A stretch of DNA of 64,000 nt, taken from NCBI GenBank assembly GCA_947568835.1, contig OX387607.1:5642001-5706000 (forward strand), given 5' to 3'. Shown in pieces: positions 8,977 to 20,000 of the stretch (the stretch's first letter is position 1; every line of letters starts with the position of its first letter). A program made the translations under genes and the position numbers. This DNA comes from Protonemura montana (taxonomy: Eukaryota > Arthropoda > Insecta > Plecoptera > Nemouridae). The notes under the pieces are model-generated. The model was not told the DNA's origin. It ran no database searches and saw only the letters and a program-made list of their open reading frames with translations.

Positions 8977-11900
8977 TCAGAGCTCATTGTGGATGTACTC
9001 TGTGGTTGTGGCGATGTCAAATTCGTGGTAGCCATCGCAGGAGCTCTCGAAGTAGTTCGCACATGGCACGTGCTCGGTGGCCGCGGTGTACAGTTTCCAG
9101 AACGGCGTCTGCGTCATGCTCGACATGAACCAGCTAGCGGCGATACTGTCGGTGAGAAATTGCACAGTTAAGAATGACTGCAATTATAACATCCCAAAAT
9201 TGTATCGGTTAGTCGGACTGAACCAACAATCAGTTCGATACTAAGCAGGTTTTATTTTGTAAACTTCTAGTTCTTTATACCTGCAATCCTCTTATGAGTT
9301 ATACCGTTAGTATTCCCATAGAGAAAGTTATTACTCAGCAGGCACAAGATTAGGTGTGAAAATTGTGTTAAGTGCAAAAATAAATTCCTTTCATTTGTTG
9401 TTAACTAAGGAGTGGTATTCCTAGAATTATTTTATTGGCCCTCCTTCAAAAGGGACGTTAAGCCTATGGTCCCCCTTGGCACCGAGTTTCTCCTTTTCCC
9501 TTGTTCATCAATATCCTAATCATCACTCACTCATTCACCGGCGCTATTAGACCAGTCCCACAGGGCCCATAGCCAAAGTGCTAACACACCATTTCAGTTA
9601 TGTGGTTGCATGTTTTTACCCACTGACTCTGAATATTGAAAGCATTACTGGACTGTAATGCACTAGTTATGAACTTGTTATGCGATGCCAAACGGGCCCA
9701 TTAATATGAATATCATTTAACGTGAACTGTATCCCCTGAACTCGAGCCTATCTCTGGTTGACTCACGTAGAAATCTTGGTGACTCCGGGCTTGAGCCCTC
9801 CACCGACGTGGCCATCTTCGTTGAGCGTACACACAACAAACCGGTCACATGCAGGTTGCTCACGACAGAAGGTAAATCCTCGCCACACCCGAAGAATGGG
9901 CTCGATGACTTCTCCGTTCAGTGTGTCAGCCATTTTGCTCTCCAGCTCTCCTGGTGCCAGATGACTCAAGCTTAGGCCCTTACTCTGACCCATGCGGAAC
10001 ACTTCCTGCAATCAGCGGAGAAAGCTTTTGCATGAGCTGGTACTTGGAAGGTGTGTGGGGGCAACTTGCTCCAAACATGGTTAGATATGAACATCAATGC
10101 AAATGCAACAAATTCTGCCTAATTATTTGCTTTACGTAATAATACTGCAATATTTTACCTAGATTTGCTCACATATATTACTCATGTTGTCGGTATATCT
10201 TGGTACTGGTTTTAACTTTTAAGAGTTCTAAAAAAACTCTCCAAGTCTTTTCAATAAAATAATAGCATCACAGCAGCAGACTGAAAATAAAATGTGCAGA
10301 CTTATCGAGCTCTCATACCTGAAGGTATGCCACGGCTGGCTTGATGTAAGTCTTGGCCTCGATCTTCATGCCAAACTGTCTCTTGAAGACTGCGTTGGCC
10401 AGATTGCTCAAGCTCTCTGCGGGCCGGCTCGAATCAAACTTTGCATAGCCTTGCGAAGACAGGAAACTGTTGCCAAAAAACTGTGCAGTGCTCATGTATC
10501 TGGAAGAATAATGCAGCAACACTTCAGTAAGGTTTCTGTGGGTCTTGTGGTCAGGATTGGAGTTGGAAATGAAGTTGAGGGGAATTTTATGACTGTTTGA
10601 GAAAGATATTCAACGTTTGAGTTAAATCTGTTAAATGAGAATAAAATGAGGAGCTAGCTTTTTTTTGTGGCTAAGATAGGAACCGAACTATTTATTTAAA
10701 AAATTGGTGAGAAAGCAAAAATAAACTTCTATAAAAATCATGGGAAACCCCAAATATTATATTCATTGCGTATATAAGATTCTAAATAAAAATATGAGTG
10801 ATAAGGTGGCAGCCGTGGGGCGTGGAATCTGACATCCCAAACGGCAAACAGCAAGTCGTGATTTTGGTCGTGATGCTGCACAAATTACAACCAGAACCAG
10901 GATATGAACTGCTGCCTTCCAATTACCGGCTATTTCAGTTTTCATTTCAGTTCAGTTTTCACTTAACTTATAGACAAAAAAAATGGTTAAGTTTGCAGAC
11001 GAAAGGAAGAAGGCGCCTGCGTGCTTACCAGTTACAGCACATTACAAGGTAACTGTGAAGTATAATTACTCCACGGTACAGCGATATCGAAGCCAAGAGC
11101 GTGAAATGATGCTTCAGTTAATTGCAGTTATCACTCAAAAGGGGATTAACTGCGTCCGATAGCGTTTTGATTAATTACATAATTTAAATATCCGTATCGG
11201 ATGAATGACACACTTGAGTCACCTATACACGAACACGACCTCAACTTTCTTTACAGGAACGACATTACGTAGATTCACATTTTGGTTTTTCCTTTCCACC
11301 AGTGCACTACACCATTGCAAAACATGAAACAAGTGCCTAGGTGATAACGACCCCTGACACCCTGGATCAGCCCCTGAAGTAAAGAAACAGCCTAATCTTA
11401 ACCCCTATTTTAATGGAGTGAAATGACAGATCAAAGTAAGTAGGAATTTGGCTATCCATTAATAGTGGATTATGAATAAAGACTATTTAACTTTTTACTA
11501 TTACTATTTAATCATTACAATTAACCATTAACTAATTAAACCACCTGTAGCGCAGACCACACATTTTATATGGAAGACATAGGTACATTGGAAGTGACGG
11601 GTCCAGAAAAGTGACACAACTAGATAAGCAGCCCCAAGGGCTGCACCCCCCCCCCCCCCCCCCCCCATAAAATACACTTAAAAAATAGGGGCAGTATTAT
11701 TAGGGGTTCATTAGGGAATAGGCCCAACAACCCAAACCATCTAAACACGGTCCTACGACCACTCACCTCGCCTGTGTGACGGGATCGGCGATGTGCGTCA
11801 CCCATTCCGCCACGAAGCTCGTCAAACTCTTAATCCAACGCCTCCTGAAGCTCGGGTTCTGCAGCGACCGGAAAACTTTGTCCACGTCAAACTTGCCGGA

Positions 11901-12680
11901 CTCGTCGGTAAAAAGCTTCATGATAGCTTCCAGCCCGCTGTTCTTCCACAACGCCTCCCCCAGCTCGGACGTCTTAAAGTGTTCCCAGTATCCCATGAGA
12001 TGCTCTACAAACGGCGGCATGAACGACACCGGCTTTTTCGTGCTCCGCTCTTGACGGACAGCGTCGTTGCTGCCTCCGATACCTTGCATCAGCATGGGTA
12101 GAAGATTCATGATCGTCTCCATTCCTGCTCCTTGCTTGTTACCTTGGCCCATAAAAGTGCTGGCAAGTCCCATGATGGCCTGTAGATCGATGCCTCCCGA
12201 CTCTTTCCGCCCGTTGACTTCATTGTTGTTGACGTCGACGGTGCTGTCTTGTCCAGCGAACATACTGACCACGGAGCCAATCATGTCGCCACCCCCTGGT
12301 TGTGTTAGGAGGGACCCCAACCCCGAAAGGATGTCGGCGGCAGGACTAGGCTTGTCACCTTCCGATGGTTGGGTCAGGAGCGATCCGAGTCCCGAAATCA
12401 AGTCTCCGGCTACGTTATTTCCACCCCCGCCTCCTGTGAGCATATCACCTAATTGTTTTCCACCTCCTGATTGCAAGAAACTTGCGACCATACCTCCCAT
12501 TGCGCCGAACCCTTGTGCATTCGGATTGTTCTGGATTTGATTCTGGATTAGCGACTTAGCTGCCTCAAAAAACGGGTTTGATTCTTCTTCAACGTCATTC
12601 TCGGAGGCGATGACGGCTGAATATGTCAACGACAGTAGCACGAGACTCGCGAAATACACTTGCCTCATCCTGAATCCCAT
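8977..12680 (-). CDS. Secreted Gly-rich 500-aa protein, four exons
   Basis: Exons on the minus strand are 12680-11767, 10499-10319, 10005-9767 and 9145-8977. Donors GTGAGT, GTATGA and GTGAGT pair with good acceptors, and the phases close to 500 aa plus stop. The start is MGFRMRQVYF; the second Met (12668) leads straight into a hydrophobic signal peptide (VYFASLVLLSLTYSAVIAS). Next comes a Gly-rich region, about residues 60-200, with repeated GDMLTGGG, DLISGLGSLLTQP and DILSGLGSLLTQP units. A less repetitive C-terminal half follows, rich in Trp/Phe with several Cys (REQPACDRF, HVPCANYFESSCDGYHEF). No catalytic motif is evident. The look is that of an uncharacterised arthropod secreted family, a recognition I hold only moderately. 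An upstream extension in the same frame lacks an ATG and is left out. Confidence 0.85.
9452..9473. repeat. Possible LINE 3'-end fragment
   Basis: The word GGGACGTTAAGCC followed by TATGGTCCC, then TTGGCACCGAG, lies in the last intron of the secreted-protein gene. It resembles the kind of sequence often seen at 3' ends of arthropod non-LTR elements. No reverse transcriptase remains nearby. Assignment is from general memory only. Confidence 0.3.
11646..11666. repeat. 21-nt poly-C run
   Basis: An uninterrupted run of 21 C (poly-G on the minus strand, the sense strand of the surrounding gene) lies about 100 bp inside intron 1 of the secreted-protein gene. It is striking in AT-rich surroundings and is a place where assembly length may be unreliable. 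Confidence 0.95.
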
Positions 12681-13849
12681 TGTGTCACTGAACGGTTGAC
12701 GTTTGCCGAAACGAAAGGAAACGTCAGAGTGAACTGCCTTCTGTGGCGGCGCGGACACTTCTGACGTGTTATTGGCGCATCCTAATCTTACGTGGCTCTC
12801 GGAGAAGTAACTGTACTTGCCTACCTCTTCGGATTCAAGAATGTCCGATGAATTAAAGTCCGATCCAAAAACATCATGCAAAATGTATCGACTTTTTTTA
12901 GCTAAATGCATGGTCCAGAGCAAAGTCCAGAGCAGTCCAAAGATAGGTTGGATTTAAGTTAGACGTTGCGCTGGTCTGAACAACGTGCCCCCTCACACGA
13001 GGCGGGTGCATTGTTATTTTTGGTACAGCTAACGTCTCCTAGTTTTTATTAGTATCATCGATGGCATTTGGAGATGTACACAAAAAAGTGTTTTCGCCTT
13101 GTTGCATAGGTTTCTCAATGTAAGCAAAATCAATCGATCGATCGATCGGCTAACACACCTCTAGCTCTAAGAAGAACATCGCACTTATCTCAAATTCAAA
13201 TTTACAACTATCTAATCAGAGGCCGAAGGCTTTTAACATTATTCCCAATATATATGATTAATTTTCATCCCCTTGTCACTGCCATAGCCGATGTTTTTCA
13301 CCCAGCCGCTACAGCTGGCCTGCCAATGACCTTACTCCAAGTCATCTACCTGCTCCGTAACAGCTGTTTTGTCCATTTCCTACTGGCTGGCTTCTGGCTG
13401 GTCTAGTGGTGTGGGCCTAATCACATGGTGGTTGGCTTCCTTCATAATCATTTCCTAGCCGCATGCTAACGCGGCTGTCACGACAACGTGCCTGCACTAA
13501 CGACCCTGTGTGATCAGCATTGTGCAGACGCTGATGGCTGCATGAAATGTTAAACAATTTGATGTCGCTCGTTTTGATAACTGTTTCCTTCACAGAACAG
13601 TTGGATTTACTTCTGATGATTTGCATGGTGTACTTGCCGATATGCCAAAGCAACCAAAGCAAAAGATGAATAAAAAAAAACATGCAGTGACCCAAAGACA
13701 ATAAATTACAGGTAAAATAGGAAACTCCCTTTCAGTTTGTTAAGTTTTATCACAAAATCGACTGAGCATCTAATTTGCAGAATATACAATAAATATCACA
13801 GAAATTTTGAAATACATGTTTTGCAATTCCATATTAAATTAGATTAGTT
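12681..13849. other. Intergenic stretch between two minus-strand genes
   Basis: This holds the 5' flank of the secreted-protein gene and the 3' flank of the OTC-like gene. It contains a short (ATCG)4 tract at 13133-13148. An open frame at 13417-13701 on the minus strand has no recognisable content and no splice partners. Nothing else is supported. Confidence 0.5.
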
Positions 13850-16204
13850 TTAAAAGTTGGGATTATTTGTGCATTCCAGATTATCACCATCAAAATCTGG
13901 TCTTTTTATTTTCGGTTGAAAGTCCTTCATCAGACGTAGGATTATTGCCTGTGAAAAATTTGCATTTCAGTACTTGAAACAATTTAAAGTTAAGCAATAA
14001 CCGATCTAGACAAATGTTGGATGGATGAATGACCACAATAAAAACTATCATTAATTATTGAATGTTTCTTGTGGTGTTTACTTTAATTAGGAATTCTGTC
14101 GTAACAGGTGAGTCATTTGAACCCTTCCTTAACGATGAGAAACTAGATCCAAGTCTCCGCTAGTCTAGACTTCATTCTGCTTGTCTTTTATATCATACTA
14201 TCACATATATTTCATGCATATCACACACATATATTTCACCAACAACCTTAGATCGTCACCTCAACTAATACTTATTAATTATGATCCATCGACAGTTTAA
14301 TGGCCAAGCCGTTAAACAAAAAGTAATCAATAATGACGACACTTACCATAGCTACCCACACCGTGTTGCCGACGGACTTCCAGACAAGCGACCGGGAGTT
14401 GTTGAATATGCCATCGGACACTTGGCAAGAGGTTCGTGGGAGACTGTGCAAAAACACCCAGTCTACAGAAGCCTCATTGGCCATCTAAAAGCAAAAGGCA
14501 CAAAATTCACATTACCAAAGTTACCCTAAACTCCAGTCATTACAACCACTCAACAGGAACTGTTTATATTTGTATTTGTATTTTATTAGCTGTTGTAGTA
14601 CATTTTTAAATGTGTATTTATTGTCATCAGATAATATTACTAGTAGCAGTCTAACATAACATATATGTCTAAACAAGCACACCCTAACCTAATAATCCCC
14701 ATTGCAAAATTCCTCTAAATTATAAAACTCTTCTTGGAGAAGGAAGATCTTGAGGTTAAGTCTTTATTGGTTTGGTGCATTGCAAATACTTGGTTTCAAG
14801 GTCAGCAAGGTTAAGCAACATTATGCCGAGTTAGATTGTTGGTAGATGACCACCATATCTGTGGCCAGTTTTTTTTTAGGGGAGATGTGAGGGGATGAAA
14901 TTCTGCCATCTATTTGCCAGCATCAGGTCTCACCTCTAGGATTTTACAGGAGCTGACCAGGACTGAACCTCTTTGGAATGAACTACACTTTCAACTATCA
15001 AATCAGTTGTTTCTCTGTTCTTGCCAAACATTTTTATATATCATTGTCAATTTACTTGCTTTTGATAGTATCTTTGAGTTGAGAAATCGATGTCATATCC
15101 TTTGCTCATATCCTTTGCTCGTATCCTTCATTATGAATTCTTATCAGCTGTCAAGTCCTCTTAAAAAAGTACCCAATACTTATACAGTAATAAGATATTT
15201 AAGATGGATTGTCTGGGCATACCTCGTCAGTAATGCATAGATCTGGGTCTTCGTGGTATGTTGTGGAAAGTATATCAACACGATCCATTGCCTCTTCAGT
15301 TGAAAAAAACTGGTGCAAGCATGTCTCGTACCGCTGGCTGTACTTCCGAGCCAAATCCAACTGCTCACTTATATCCTGCCAAAAAAAAATTTTAAAATTA
15401 TGTCAACTCCAACAACATTTTTTGCAAGAAATAATTTAAAAAAATCATTTGTACCTACCTGACTGCACCCTGAATTGAATCGAAAGTCCATACCAAGACG
15501 TGGAACTGTGGTTAAGTATGAATTAAAAAGTGGTCCCGGCAAACCAGAGTATCCCATCCCAAGCTTCCGAAGTCGGCCGAAATGCTCCACAAGTGTGAAT
15601 AGATCAACTAGACACTTGACGGGAGCATAGCGATCACTAAGAATGCTTACAATCGGCGTGTTTGAGCCGTCAGCCAGCAAACTAGTGTTACACTGAGAAT
15701 CACCTAGGGAGAAGACCACATCAGCCTGTGCACCAACAAACCTGGAAACAAAAATATGAAAATGCTTGGAAGTGTAAATGATTTTGAGTAGAAATTGGCT
15801 GTTTGTCCCTAGTTGAAATGGTTGTTTTACCTTCCTATATCAGGCACACTGTGAGATTTTTCCCAATTGTCTACAAAGACATTGCAATGCGCACCCAGAA
15901 GATGAGCAGCCATAGGTATAGAGAGCTGGGTCTTGATGCAAGGCCTTGCAAGAAGGACAGCCACAGAGCGTCCTTCCAGCCAAGTCTGCGTTTCCTGGGA
16001 AAATTTTAATGGTTTTTTGAAAGAGCATTTATTGGGCTGGCAGTCACACTTAATAAGGTTTGTATTCTTACCAAGCTCTTTTTGGTAAACACGCGATCTT
16101 TTAAATCTAGTGCCGTCCACAGAATATCTTTAATCTCATCACCCGTCCAGTCGTTAAGATCAATAACATCTCTCCCTACCACCGTACACGGTGCTTTAGC
16201 TTTT
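13850..16204 (-). CDS. Ornithine carbamoyltransferase-like protein, likely pseudoenzyme (5' exon unresolved)
   Basis: Minus-strand exons are 16204-16072, 15994-15831, 15741-15459, 15375-15223, 14484-14347 and 13948-13850 (stop). All junctions are GT-AG with matching phases. The fold is that of ornithine carbamoyltransferase: LNDWTGDEIKDILWTALDLK at the start of the CP domain, LSDRYAPVKCLVDLFTLVEHF, DWVFLHSLPR and SRSLV near the C-terminus. By ungapped comparison with remembered human OTC, the signature motifs are changed: STRTR reads CIKTQ, HPIQ reads APVK, DGNN reads LPGP, DxxxSMG is absent and HCLP reads HSLP. About 14 residues seem missing between exons 15223 and 14484, so a short exon may be unfound. 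The first coding exon, which must end in phase 2, is not settled; one candidate is MKFTVAHTLDV ending near 16533. The frame is open throughout, so this looks like an expressed non-catalytic paralogue rather than a dead gene. Confidence 0.8.
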
Positions 16205-17088
16205 CTGTAATGTAAAAGGTACAATTAGGGAATAGGATTCACAAAAATGAAAGGGACTGTTCAGAAATGACATTCACATCAGCACTCCTTTCATATCCTG
16301 AACCTTATTTTCAAGTCAGAGAAGAAGGCAAATCCAATTTAACAGAATTAAGAGTTGTGGTGAGTCATTTCTACTGAGAAATATCAATCTTACTGTGCAC
16401 ATGTCGAAGCAGAGCGATACTTTATTATTTGTTTTGAAATGAGTAGAGCACGTGCGGGTAAAGCCATGTTGCCCGCCGGTGAAGTTTGACAGCTGACATC
16501 TGCTAGGCAAAACGTGCGCTCTGCCATCTGTATACTTGGCTATAAACCAAACTTGAAACCAAAGCTTGAAACCAAGCTTAAACGATATGCACACGTCCAG
16601 TGTGTGGGCGACTGTAAATTTCAAGAAGCAAAACCTTGCACAAAATAAGAGAATGTTTCAATCTGTTTGAATGATTTATCTCACTTTAACTGATGTAAAA
16701 ATATCTCCAAAAAACCCCAACCTTATCCATTCCATAATGTATGAGAAATGCGGCCCAGCATGCGATACGTGTGTATAGACGCAATACAAGTGGATGGCCC
16801 CGAACCGCCATTATGTTAATTTGATGGAAGGCGAAACAGTTCTTGCAGAGGATTGAAATCGTGTTCGGGGTTCTTTGTATCGTCGCCTGTAAATATTTAC
16901 GGCGCAATATTACAATGCTGGCTGTGTTCCCAAAGCTTTCGCGTGCGAGATTGTGTTTAAGCGTTTAACACGATAGACAGAAAATAAGTAGGGTTAGCTA
17001 GTTGTTTACTGGCTTGTTTTGGTTCATTTTGAAGCCAGAATCATCGGTTTTCAGGTGAATCTTTAAAAATTTCGACTTCTTTGTCATA

Positions 17089-20000
17089 ATGGGGCTAGAC
17101 TTTGACGTTTTGGAATTTTGCAAAAAGCTCAAAAATTCTAAACAACCACCATATCAATGTCCAGTAGTAGAATGTGCTAAACCGTACAAAAGTATGTGTG
17201 GTTTGCAATATCATTTGGTTAACTTCGATCACAATGCGCCACCACCTCTTACACCAGTTCCAACTCCAGGTAAGATCAATTAATTGACAGATTTTTGCTT
17301 CAAGAAATCGTAGGTCAAGCCAAGATAGAAGGTATACCTACATTCTAACTCATTGACAATTCAAAAATGTTAACAGGACGAAAGAAAGGAAGGGGGTCTC
17401 ACCATAACCGACAACCATGCAAAACGTCAGACCTTTTAAACTCCCCCACCCGGGAGGGTCTTACCTATGCAGAAGCACAAAAGATGGTAGAGTTCGAGTT
17501 CGGTGGACGTGCCACAAGAGTTAGCATAACAGATCCACTTCCTCTTCTTTCAACCGAAGAGTTCGAGGCCAAGTACAAGAACTGTGTGATTCAGATTGCT
17601 GGCCAGGGTACCACAGATGGTCGACCAGCAGTTGCAGAAGAAAAAGTACGACTGCCCGAGCCAAACTTTTCTGTGCTTGAATCATACAACATTCCAGATG
17701 CACCTCCAAGGCCAAATGCATACATCAGGTAAATACATGTCCTTGCAATAGACCATTAAAAAAATGCATCAATAGCATAGTGCATGAGACCTTAAAACAA
17801 AAAAGGTGAAACAGGAGTATCTAAGATTATATATACCTAATCTTTATTTTCTTGAAATCATGGTTCTAATGGCCTGGTTCATGTTTTTTTTCCAGGTTCA
17901 TCGAGCGTTCAGCGGAGGAGCTTGATGCAGAGGTAGAGTACGACATGGATGAGGAAGATGCCGCGTGGCTCACTCTCGTAAACTCTAGGCGCGGTTCAAC
18001 GGGAGTCGGAAGTGTTCCAATTGACGCATTTGAACTACTCATGGACCGCCTAGAGAAGGAGTCCTACTTTCAAATGCAGGTGGGTGTATACTCAAATTGA
18101 TGTATTAATTTACTGAACTTTCAATCTCTTTACTGAAGATTGTATCTTTTTTATGAACACTACCAAAATGAATGAATTAATTAAATGGTTTGATCTTTCA
18201 ACACTTTTACCCAACTTTGATTGCCCTGCAAAGTTATGAATTTTTTATGTTATTTTGTAGGGTTCCAAGATGCTAGATAAATAATTGTTGTAGAAAGTTA
18301 ATTTATTAGAGAGCGTAACTTACGTAGGAAACTAGATTAACAAAATGTCTCAACTCTCTAGTAATCATATAATAGTAGTGATTTACGGCAAGCTGTTTGG
18401 TAGATTTTGTCGGTTCTAAATGCCTACTGGTCCCAAAAGCATGTGTCCTAACACTAACACATGTATCTGCTCAGAAGACCAGCCACCAAATAAATTCTAT
18501 AGTTGTTCAATGTTTCAGCTGATGTTTCTATCCCTGAGAGAAGTAATGAGATGGTAATTAGTGAGTTTAATGACCTAATTATTGACTTTCGCTGTTTTCT
18601 ATCTAAGGCTTGTGGCCCAAGCGGCGAGGCAGTGGCCGTGATCGACGACGACGCGGTCTGCTGTATCTGCATGGATGGCGAGTGCCAGAACTCAAACGTC
18701 ATCCTGTTCTGCGATATGTGTAATCTTGCTGTGCACCAGGTCAGTTGATCATACACCATCATTCAGTGTGGCAATCACTGGCTTGATTTGACGTGTTCAA
18801 CGGTTTTGCTCTGGATAAATGGTTTGCAGCCCTAAAAAGGGTTTTAAATCTCGACGTTTCGGCGAGGTCTGGGTCGCCATCTTCGGGATCTTCATTCTCC
18901 AAAGCAAAACCGGAGAACATGTCAAATCATCATACCATGTCTCTGAAAACCATCATGCATCAATCACTGGTAAACTGCAAACTGCAACACCATATTGTGT
19001 TTCTGGCTCTGACAATTAAAAACTGTAGCTAATTAAGATTCTAAAAATCTGCAATTAAATAGATTTCATTTTAACTCTAACAAAAATATTTTAACAATTT
19101 ATCATTGGTACCACAGCTGAGAATCTCTTGCCAGATTTCAACATCCTTTTTCATTTGTGTTGAACTGACCTATTTGGAATTCTACAAGATCTGATTTATC
19201 TGACCCGATTCTTTTTTTATTTTTGATTTATTTGTGAAAACAGCTTAGAAACTAGTATACATACTAGTATACATTTTAGATAAAATGTATTCTCTGGCTA
19301 ACTGTTCAGTGAGTCCTGCATTAAAGGCAAGAAAATTTCAACTCCCCAATCAAAGTCAAGCCAAAAACAACATAACAACAAAAGCTCTTCTGGCTGAAAT
19401 GTATATTTGAAGCTTTAGAAAAAAACTGATGACAGTCAAAATGGCATGCTTTGATTGTTATGCTTTGTCGCCAGGACTGCTACGGAGTGCCATACATTCC
19501 CGAAGGCCAGTGGCTGTGTCGCCGATGTCTCCAGTCTCCGTCTCGTGCCGTCGACTGCGTGCTTTGCCCAAACAACGGGGGTGCGTTCAAGCAGACAGAT
19601 CGCGGGCACTGGGCACATGTCGTTTGCGCTCTGTGGATACCAGAGGTGAGACTGTTGACCGCTGAATGGTGCGGCCTAAATACTAAATTCACTTTAAAAA
19701 GCACCAGTTAAAATTATGGACCGCACAGATGTCTTCTTTATTCTTATAGAAAATAAGTTAATTTTTTTTAGAAACATTTTGAATGGTTCTGCTCTGATGG
19801 TATTGACTTTAAGTTCCTATTAAGAGCGCAGATTAGGCTCTTAAAAGAATCCAACCTCAATCCCATCAGAGCAGAACCGTTCAATGCGTTGCTATCTGAC
19901 TGTTGTTCTGGACCCCAGCTCAACAAGTTTGGTTTTTATTTTTTTCTGTCAAAACTTCATTTACCTAATTAAAATCCTATTTCAAATGGTATGGACAACC

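Follow-up and report, generated by a model that had tools for sequence, protein, structure and literature searches.

An intact ornithine carbamoyltransferase-like gene of the stonefly Protonemura montana, probably an inherited mitochondrial enzyme turned pseudoenzyme

Why should an insect carry an ornithine carbamoyltransferase (OTC) gene that is whole in its frame and its splice sites, and that has lost the catalytic motifs of the enzyme? The question is raised by a locus in a window of 64,000 nucleotides from Protonemura montana (contig OX387607.1, positions 5,642,001 to 5,706,000; the coordinates below are those of the window unless a contig is named). The original prediction placed there, at 13850 to 16204, an open and correctly spliced chain homologous to OTC, and proposed that it might be a pseudoenzyme.

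The gene runs from 16467 to 13850 on the minus strand, and consists of seven exons with 347 codons and a stop. All six introns are GT-AG, and the spliced chain of 347 residues has no internal stop, so the description as open and correctly spliced stands. Both predicted end points are correct, since the stop codon (13852-13850) ends at 13850 and exon 2 begins at 16204. For the first exon, which the prediction had left to be found, a candidate is proposed at 16467-16394 on the minus strand. This exon 1 (16394..16467) supplies an ATG and a leader, MALPARALLISKQIIKYRSASTCA(Q), and ends at a GTAAGA donor in phase 2, which fits exon 2. The start has A at -3 and G at +4; there is also an in-frame ATG at 16527, 60 bases upstream, and for that reason the true start is putative. 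The leader (the first 25 residues) has four K/R and no D/E. The hydrophobic moment of its helix is no better than that of shuffled leaders, 1611 of 2000 of which reach the same value, and because of this mitochondrial import is something that we infer.

The remaining exons, all on the minus strand, divide the motifs of the enzyme between them. Exon 2 (16072..16204) encodes GRDVIDLNDWTGDEIKDILWTALDLKDRV. Exon 3 (15831..15994) has CIKTQ where OTC has STRTR, and ends in phase 2 within an arginine codon that aligns to human R129 (c.386). Exon 4 (15459..15741) contains three further replacements, of R141 by L, HPIQ by APVK and DGNN by LPGP, while exon 5 (15223..15375) covers the D263/SMG region, lacks the SMG loop, and ends at or near human intron 8 (c.867). 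Exon 6 (14347..14484) encodes WVFLHSLPR...SRSLVW...NTVWVAM, with C303 replaced by S and R330 by T, and exon 7 (13850..13948) the C-terminal helix and a tail, AIILRLMKDFQPKIKRPDF.... Identity to human OTC is highest in exon 6 (19 of 42 aligned residues) and exon 2 (16/36), and lowest in exon 5 (10/49).

The prediction had also asked whether an exon lies between 14485 and 15222. This is intron 5 (14485..15222, minus strand, 738 bases), and a scan for in-frame exons between 24 and 150 bases long found 18 candidates. The top score among them was matched or beaten by the best candidate in 45 of 200 shuffles. A hidden exon that would restore the SMG loop in the intron at 15222-14485 is therefore rejected, there being no candidate above chance, and the motifs are not restored. 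A promoter and terminator scan at the 3' end of the gene yielded nothing informative.

Two neighbours may be noted here. On the plus strand at 17089-18080 there is a gene head-to-head with the OTC-like gene, whose product begins in a way that we take, by recognition, to resemble a BRPF/Br140-type chromatin protein. The two start codons are about 620 bases apart, and with this arrangement a shared promoter is possible. On the other side, at 11763-12953 on the minus strand, is a stop-to-stop frame of 396 codons with a glycine-rich middle, in which an inner start resembles a signal peptide (MRQVYFASLVLLSLTYSAVIASE).

The frame itself is the evidence for constraint. The 347 codons contain no stops, compared to a mean of 18.7 and a minimum of 6 in 3000 letter shuffles, and the GC content at codon positions 1, 2 and 3 is 0.53, 0.41 and 0.44, with 0.34 in the introns. 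A random substitution in this frame creates a stop in 3.5% of cases. When stops, splice sites and indels (the last assumed to arise at 0.05 to 0.15 per substitution) are all counted, a gene freed from constraint would have been broken, at the 95% level, by neutral drift of more than about 0.02-0.03 substitutions per site. Frame and splice sites being unbroken, the gene was therefore under constraint until recently at least, and by this reckoning neutral decay over a long period would have left the frame less intact than it is.

The claim that the protein is a homologue of OTC is borne out. A phmmer search of the whole PDB has at its top 1c9y (127 bits, E 7.3e-36) and 1fb5 (122.8 bits, E 1.4e-34), which we take to be human OTC and a near-identical mammalian OTC. 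The next protein after the mammalian OTCs, presumably an archaeal OTC, scores 61.3 bits (E 7e-16), and the matches to aspartate carbamoyltransferase (ATCase) are weak (best 47.2 bits, CAD 25.6 bits). Two Pfam domains are found, in order and above their gathering thresholds, namely OTCace_N (PF02729; 60.0 against 29.9 bits) and OTCace (PF00185; 41.9 against 29.4 bits), and judging by these two domains the protein belongs to the aspartate/ornithine carbamoyltransferase superfamily. The NCBIfam model for OTC, TIGR00658, gives 97.8 bits, below its curated cut-off of 280.85, and no other enzyme family is above cut-off in Pfam or NCBIfam. In a MAFFT alignment, 90 of 293 aligned residues are identical to human OTC (31%), leaving 203 differences.

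A tree with true OTC and ATCase, as the prediction had recommended, was calculated for 30 proteins, with 22 rows taken from the best 80 of 595 confirmed bacterial/archaeal OTC loci. The OTC-like protein groups with human OTC (97/85), and these two group with the mitochondrial OTC of Coccidioides (99/100). In this 30-row tree the animal and fungal mitochondrial OTCs are separate from bacterial OTC and from ATCase, with a bootstrap that is not fully settled. The branch of the OTC-like protein is 6.29 changes per site, compared to 0.22 for human OTC, and because it is so long the position of the protein is less sure. A branch of this length would mean either strong relaxation or positive selection. 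For ATCase in the same tree, the branches are 0.26 for the protein of this genome and 0.16 for human CAD, so that this further member of the family, at least, has not evolved fast in the insect.

The introns provide a separate line of evidence. Those of the OTC-like gene follow coding bases 74, 207, 371, 654, 807 and 945, in phases 2, 0, 2, 0, 0 and 0. Human OTC has introns after c.77, c.386 (within Arg129), c.663 and c.867, and also after c.298, c.540 and c.717; its intron 2 lies between c.211 and c.219 and its intron 9 between c.996 and c.1019, which we take to be at c.216 and c.1005 exactly. All six introns of the OTC-like gene share their phase with a human OTC intron. Intron 3 splits the arginine codon at R129 and coincides with the printed position of human intron 4 exactly, in both alignments, and intron 6, after the methionine at human 335, coincides with human intron 9 if this is indeed at c.1005. 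By phmmer, intron 5 separates human residues 289 and 290, exactly as intron 8 does, whereas in the MAFFT alignment it adjoins human 293, beside a six-residue insert and about four codons off. Intron 2 is about one codon or less from the presumed position of human intron 2. Intron 4 lies in a loop with gaps, at a distance from human intron 6 that varies between 2 and 4 codons with the alignment used; and intron 1, like human intron 1 (c.77), is in phase 2, with a position that falls within the unalignable leader. There are thus two or three exact positions, with the other alignable ones near. If introns are treated as thrown at random, the chance of three exact positions among six (human 4, 8 and 9) is 1.3e-5, and that of two is 1.1e-3. 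Nothing in the OTC-like gene corresponds to human introns 3, 5 and 7. The shared introns therefore support common descent with the vertebrate OTC genes, and argue against a recent bacterial gift or an origin from ATCase. Overall the gene looks like a vertically inherited animal OTC, and a complete gene model, with introns of the animal OTC type, points to an inherited OTC, not to contamination or ATCase.

What remains of the active site was judged against a set of 83 OTCs, made up of the best 80 of 595 confirmed bacterial/archaeal loci together with human, Coccidioides and Pyrococcus, a set that leans to Bacillota. The prokaryotic loci were gathered by a second genome scan with a three-row profile; an earlier scan of prokaryotic genomes, for which human OTC was the query, gave 115 stretches, and none of these was confirmed. 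The predicted replacements, of STRTR by CIKTQ, HPIQ by APVK, DGNN by LPGP and HCLP by HSLP, together with loss of the SMG loop, all hold against human OTC and the 82 others (the best 80 of 595 prokaryotic loci among them). The ligands of carbamoyl phosphate are changed (R92K within STRTR, R141L, H168A, Q171K and R330T), and S90, R92, R94, R141, H168, Q171 and R330 each reach a conservation of 1.00 across the 83-member set (with the best 80 of 595 prokaryotic loci). On the ornithine side, the alignment has a gap at D263 and SMG, S stands in place of C303 and P in place of N199. Only T93, L163 and L304 are kept among 16 substrate contacts that are at least 90% conserved in this set, 13 being replaced or missing; H302 and P305 of HCLP are also kept.

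The contacts have fared somewhat worse than other conserved positions. Among non-contact positions that are at least 90% conserved in the 83 OTCs (the best 80 of 595 prokaryotic loci included), 26 of 55 are kept, and Fisher's test of contacts against others gives p 0.048. In the same 83 OTCs, again with the best 80 of 595, a 95% threshold gives p 0.034 (3/15 contacts against 21/39 others) and an 80% threshold p 0.15 (3/16 against 30/74). The contrast is a weak one. The list of contacts, originally of 17 positions, is partly provisional, with H117 dropped as not conserved in this OTC set, and the contrast is weakened because the class of others includes D196, G197, N198 and G269 of the catalytic motifs. 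The features by which an active ornithine carbamoyltransferase (EC 2.1.3.3) would be recognised, namely the carbamoyl-phosphate motif, the ornithine side and a TIGR00658 score above cut-off, are all wanting. With most of the carbamoyl phosphate ligands and the ornithine-closing loop gone, OTC chemistry is very unlikely, and the sequence strongly implies that OTC catalysis has been lost.

Could the protein then serve a functional OTC elsewhere in the genome? The genome searched comprises 258.48 Mb in 34 contigs, and a search with the OTC-like protein gave seven matches, all of them its own exons. A second OTC is rejected: PF00185 and PF02729 match only CAD, and TIGR00658 only CAD and the present gene. 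A very divergent second OTC could escape such searches, because exon-by-exon Pfam searches missed the OTC-like gene itself. Apart from the OTC-like gene, the searches found one carbamoyltransferase, the ATCase of CAD, at 11.93 Mb on contig C1 (33.1 Mb), in which the motifs are intact. It has the superfamily and the fold in common with the OTC-like protein and is a separate gene, but it keeps STRTS and HPTQ and has the short branch of 0.26. No carbamoyl-phosphate synthetase other than that of CAD was found in the genome, all eight matches lying within about 22 kb of ATCase. Argininosuccinate synthase, argininosuccinate lyase and an arginase-family gene have matches above cut-off; the arginase family also includes agmatinases. 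The insect thus seems to be without the first two steps of ureagenesis, and since no other OTC was found in the assembly, the OTC-like protein is unlikely to tune a live one. Among viral contigs, none of three candidate stretches was confirmed as a relative. It is worth adding that five of the seven matches to argininosuccinate lyase, at C1:13294852-13296420, are in one open frame of 575 codons, so that this part of the gene perhaps has few introns.

The prediction of an arthropod host is supported in the form of a pancrustacean one, by a mitochondrial gene order of COX1-trnL(taa)-COX2, which we take to be a pancrustacean hallmark, and by ND2, which is closest to PDB 8b9z, presumably from Drosophila (363 bits, compared to 192 for the next). 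Contig C34 was taken as the mitochondrion. The COX1 at C34:3504-4841 scores the same as a second one at C4:5760925-5762262, on a contig of 25.9 Mb, which may be a recent nuclear mitochondrial insert or an assembly join; partial COX1 matches are found on C4, C12, C16 and C3. Five contig starts, of which one opens with N, showed no telomere repeats.

We consider it probable that the OTC-like gene is the insect's own mitochondrial OTC, inherited vertically and turned into a pseudoenzyme. The main rival is that the OTC fold has been rebuilt for another reaction, with a new substrate and a new pocket. A changed function would fit both the fast divergence and the intact frame, and outside the SMG region the pocket positions are filled by residues (C, I, K, Q, L, A, K, P, S and T), not by gaps. 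However, the carbamoyl-phosphate ligands are changed, from R92K to R330T, the SMG loop is missing and no other family is above cut-off in Pfam or NCBIfam, and we regard a new enzyme as unlikely. A pseudogene in early decay appears less likely still. It would explain why the catalytic residues are gone, why the first steps of the pathway are not found in the genome and why the branch is very long; but neither the frame nor any of the six introns is broken, the neutral bound of about 0.02-0.03 substitutions per site contrasts with 203 differences in 293 aligned residues, and OTC-like proteins occur in several insect orders according to the accessible sections of PMC12419136.

The possibility that the protein is a weakly active OTC or a related transferase, its chemistry kept with altered residues, draws on the presence of T93, L163, H302, L304 and P305. 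It is made very improbable by the 13 of 16 contacts that are replaced or missing, which include R141, H168, D263, C303 and R330, and by the undetectable OTC activity of two insects that PMC12419136 cites in those same sections. Descent from ATCase or from a horizontally acquired bacterial protein has a common superfamily in its favour, and we give it hardly any credence in view of the weak ATCase matches (best 47.2 bits, CAD 25.6), the grouping with mitochondrial OTC in the tree, and the introns common to human OTC. The most likely reading of the sequence is thus that of a pseudoenzyme of the mitochondrion, retained for a role other than catalysis.

On this preferred reading as a retained pseudoenzyme, the gene would descend vertically from animal OTC, the basic leader would direct the protein into the mitochondrial matrix, and the OTC-like fold would be retained. 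Compared to vertebrate mitochondrial OTC (EC 2.1.3.3; human 1OTH/1C9Y), it would have the same fold by homology, with a basic leader, the C-terminal part and tail, the intron phases and several intron positions in common, whereas most of the catalytic and ligand residues are replaced and the SMG loop is absent. Retention for a non-catalytic role is plausible, and the protein may be a binding or scaffold protein, a more tentative proposal than descent, import or fold. The OTC body (the N-terminal helix, the helix around SDRYAPVKCLVDLFTLVEH and the C-terminal part) might then hold a surface that a partner still needs, and this surface might lie in the N-terminal or the C-terminal part, both of which are better conserved.

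The gene is not of a new kind, since arthropod OTC-like proteins lacking active-site residues are already reported in the accessible sections of PMC12419136 (Insect Mol Biol 2025), which count 40 arthropod species, 25 of them Lepidoptera. There, a predicted Helicoverpa structure is taken to suggest an ancestry shared with OTC, the best BLASTp hit is reported to have 27.43% identity to bovine OTC, a distance from mammalian OTC similar to the 31% to human OTC found here, and another role for these proteins is said to need study. Both that group and the present protein lack D263, C303, R141, H168, Q171 and R330, whereas T93, L163 and L304 are kept here and absent there, as far as can be compared from the description. 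What the present gene appears to add is a full gene structure (fuller than in the accessible part of that paper), the shared introns and the genome context. Among the papers listed by a literature search, none dealt with the function of OTC-like proteins; in PMC7013401, as far as accessible, the Bombyx OTC-like gene LOC101738188 is listed in a table of embryonic methylation and expression.

The finding bears on two broader matters. KEGG files the arthropod OTC-like proteins as OTC (K00611), according to the accessible part of PMC12419136, and this bears on claims of complete insect urea cycles. PMC6444547, to the extent seen, compared 27 insects for their urea cycles and depicted the cycle as complete or almost complete in 17, the monarch included; PMC12419136 says that this 2019 genome paper credited four Lepidoptera with all urea-cycle genes, and disputes it. 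The presence of one dead OTC, with no live one found, also argues against the common view of pseudoenzymes as regulators of their live paralogues. It is conceivable, though we hold it to be rather unlikely, that OTC always had a second, non-catalytic job in the mitochondrial matrix, and that the loss of ureagenesis in pancrustaceans freed the enzyme from catalysis while its body was kept for that job over hundreds of millions of years. If this were true, insects would represent a natural separation of the structural role of OTC from its chemistry.
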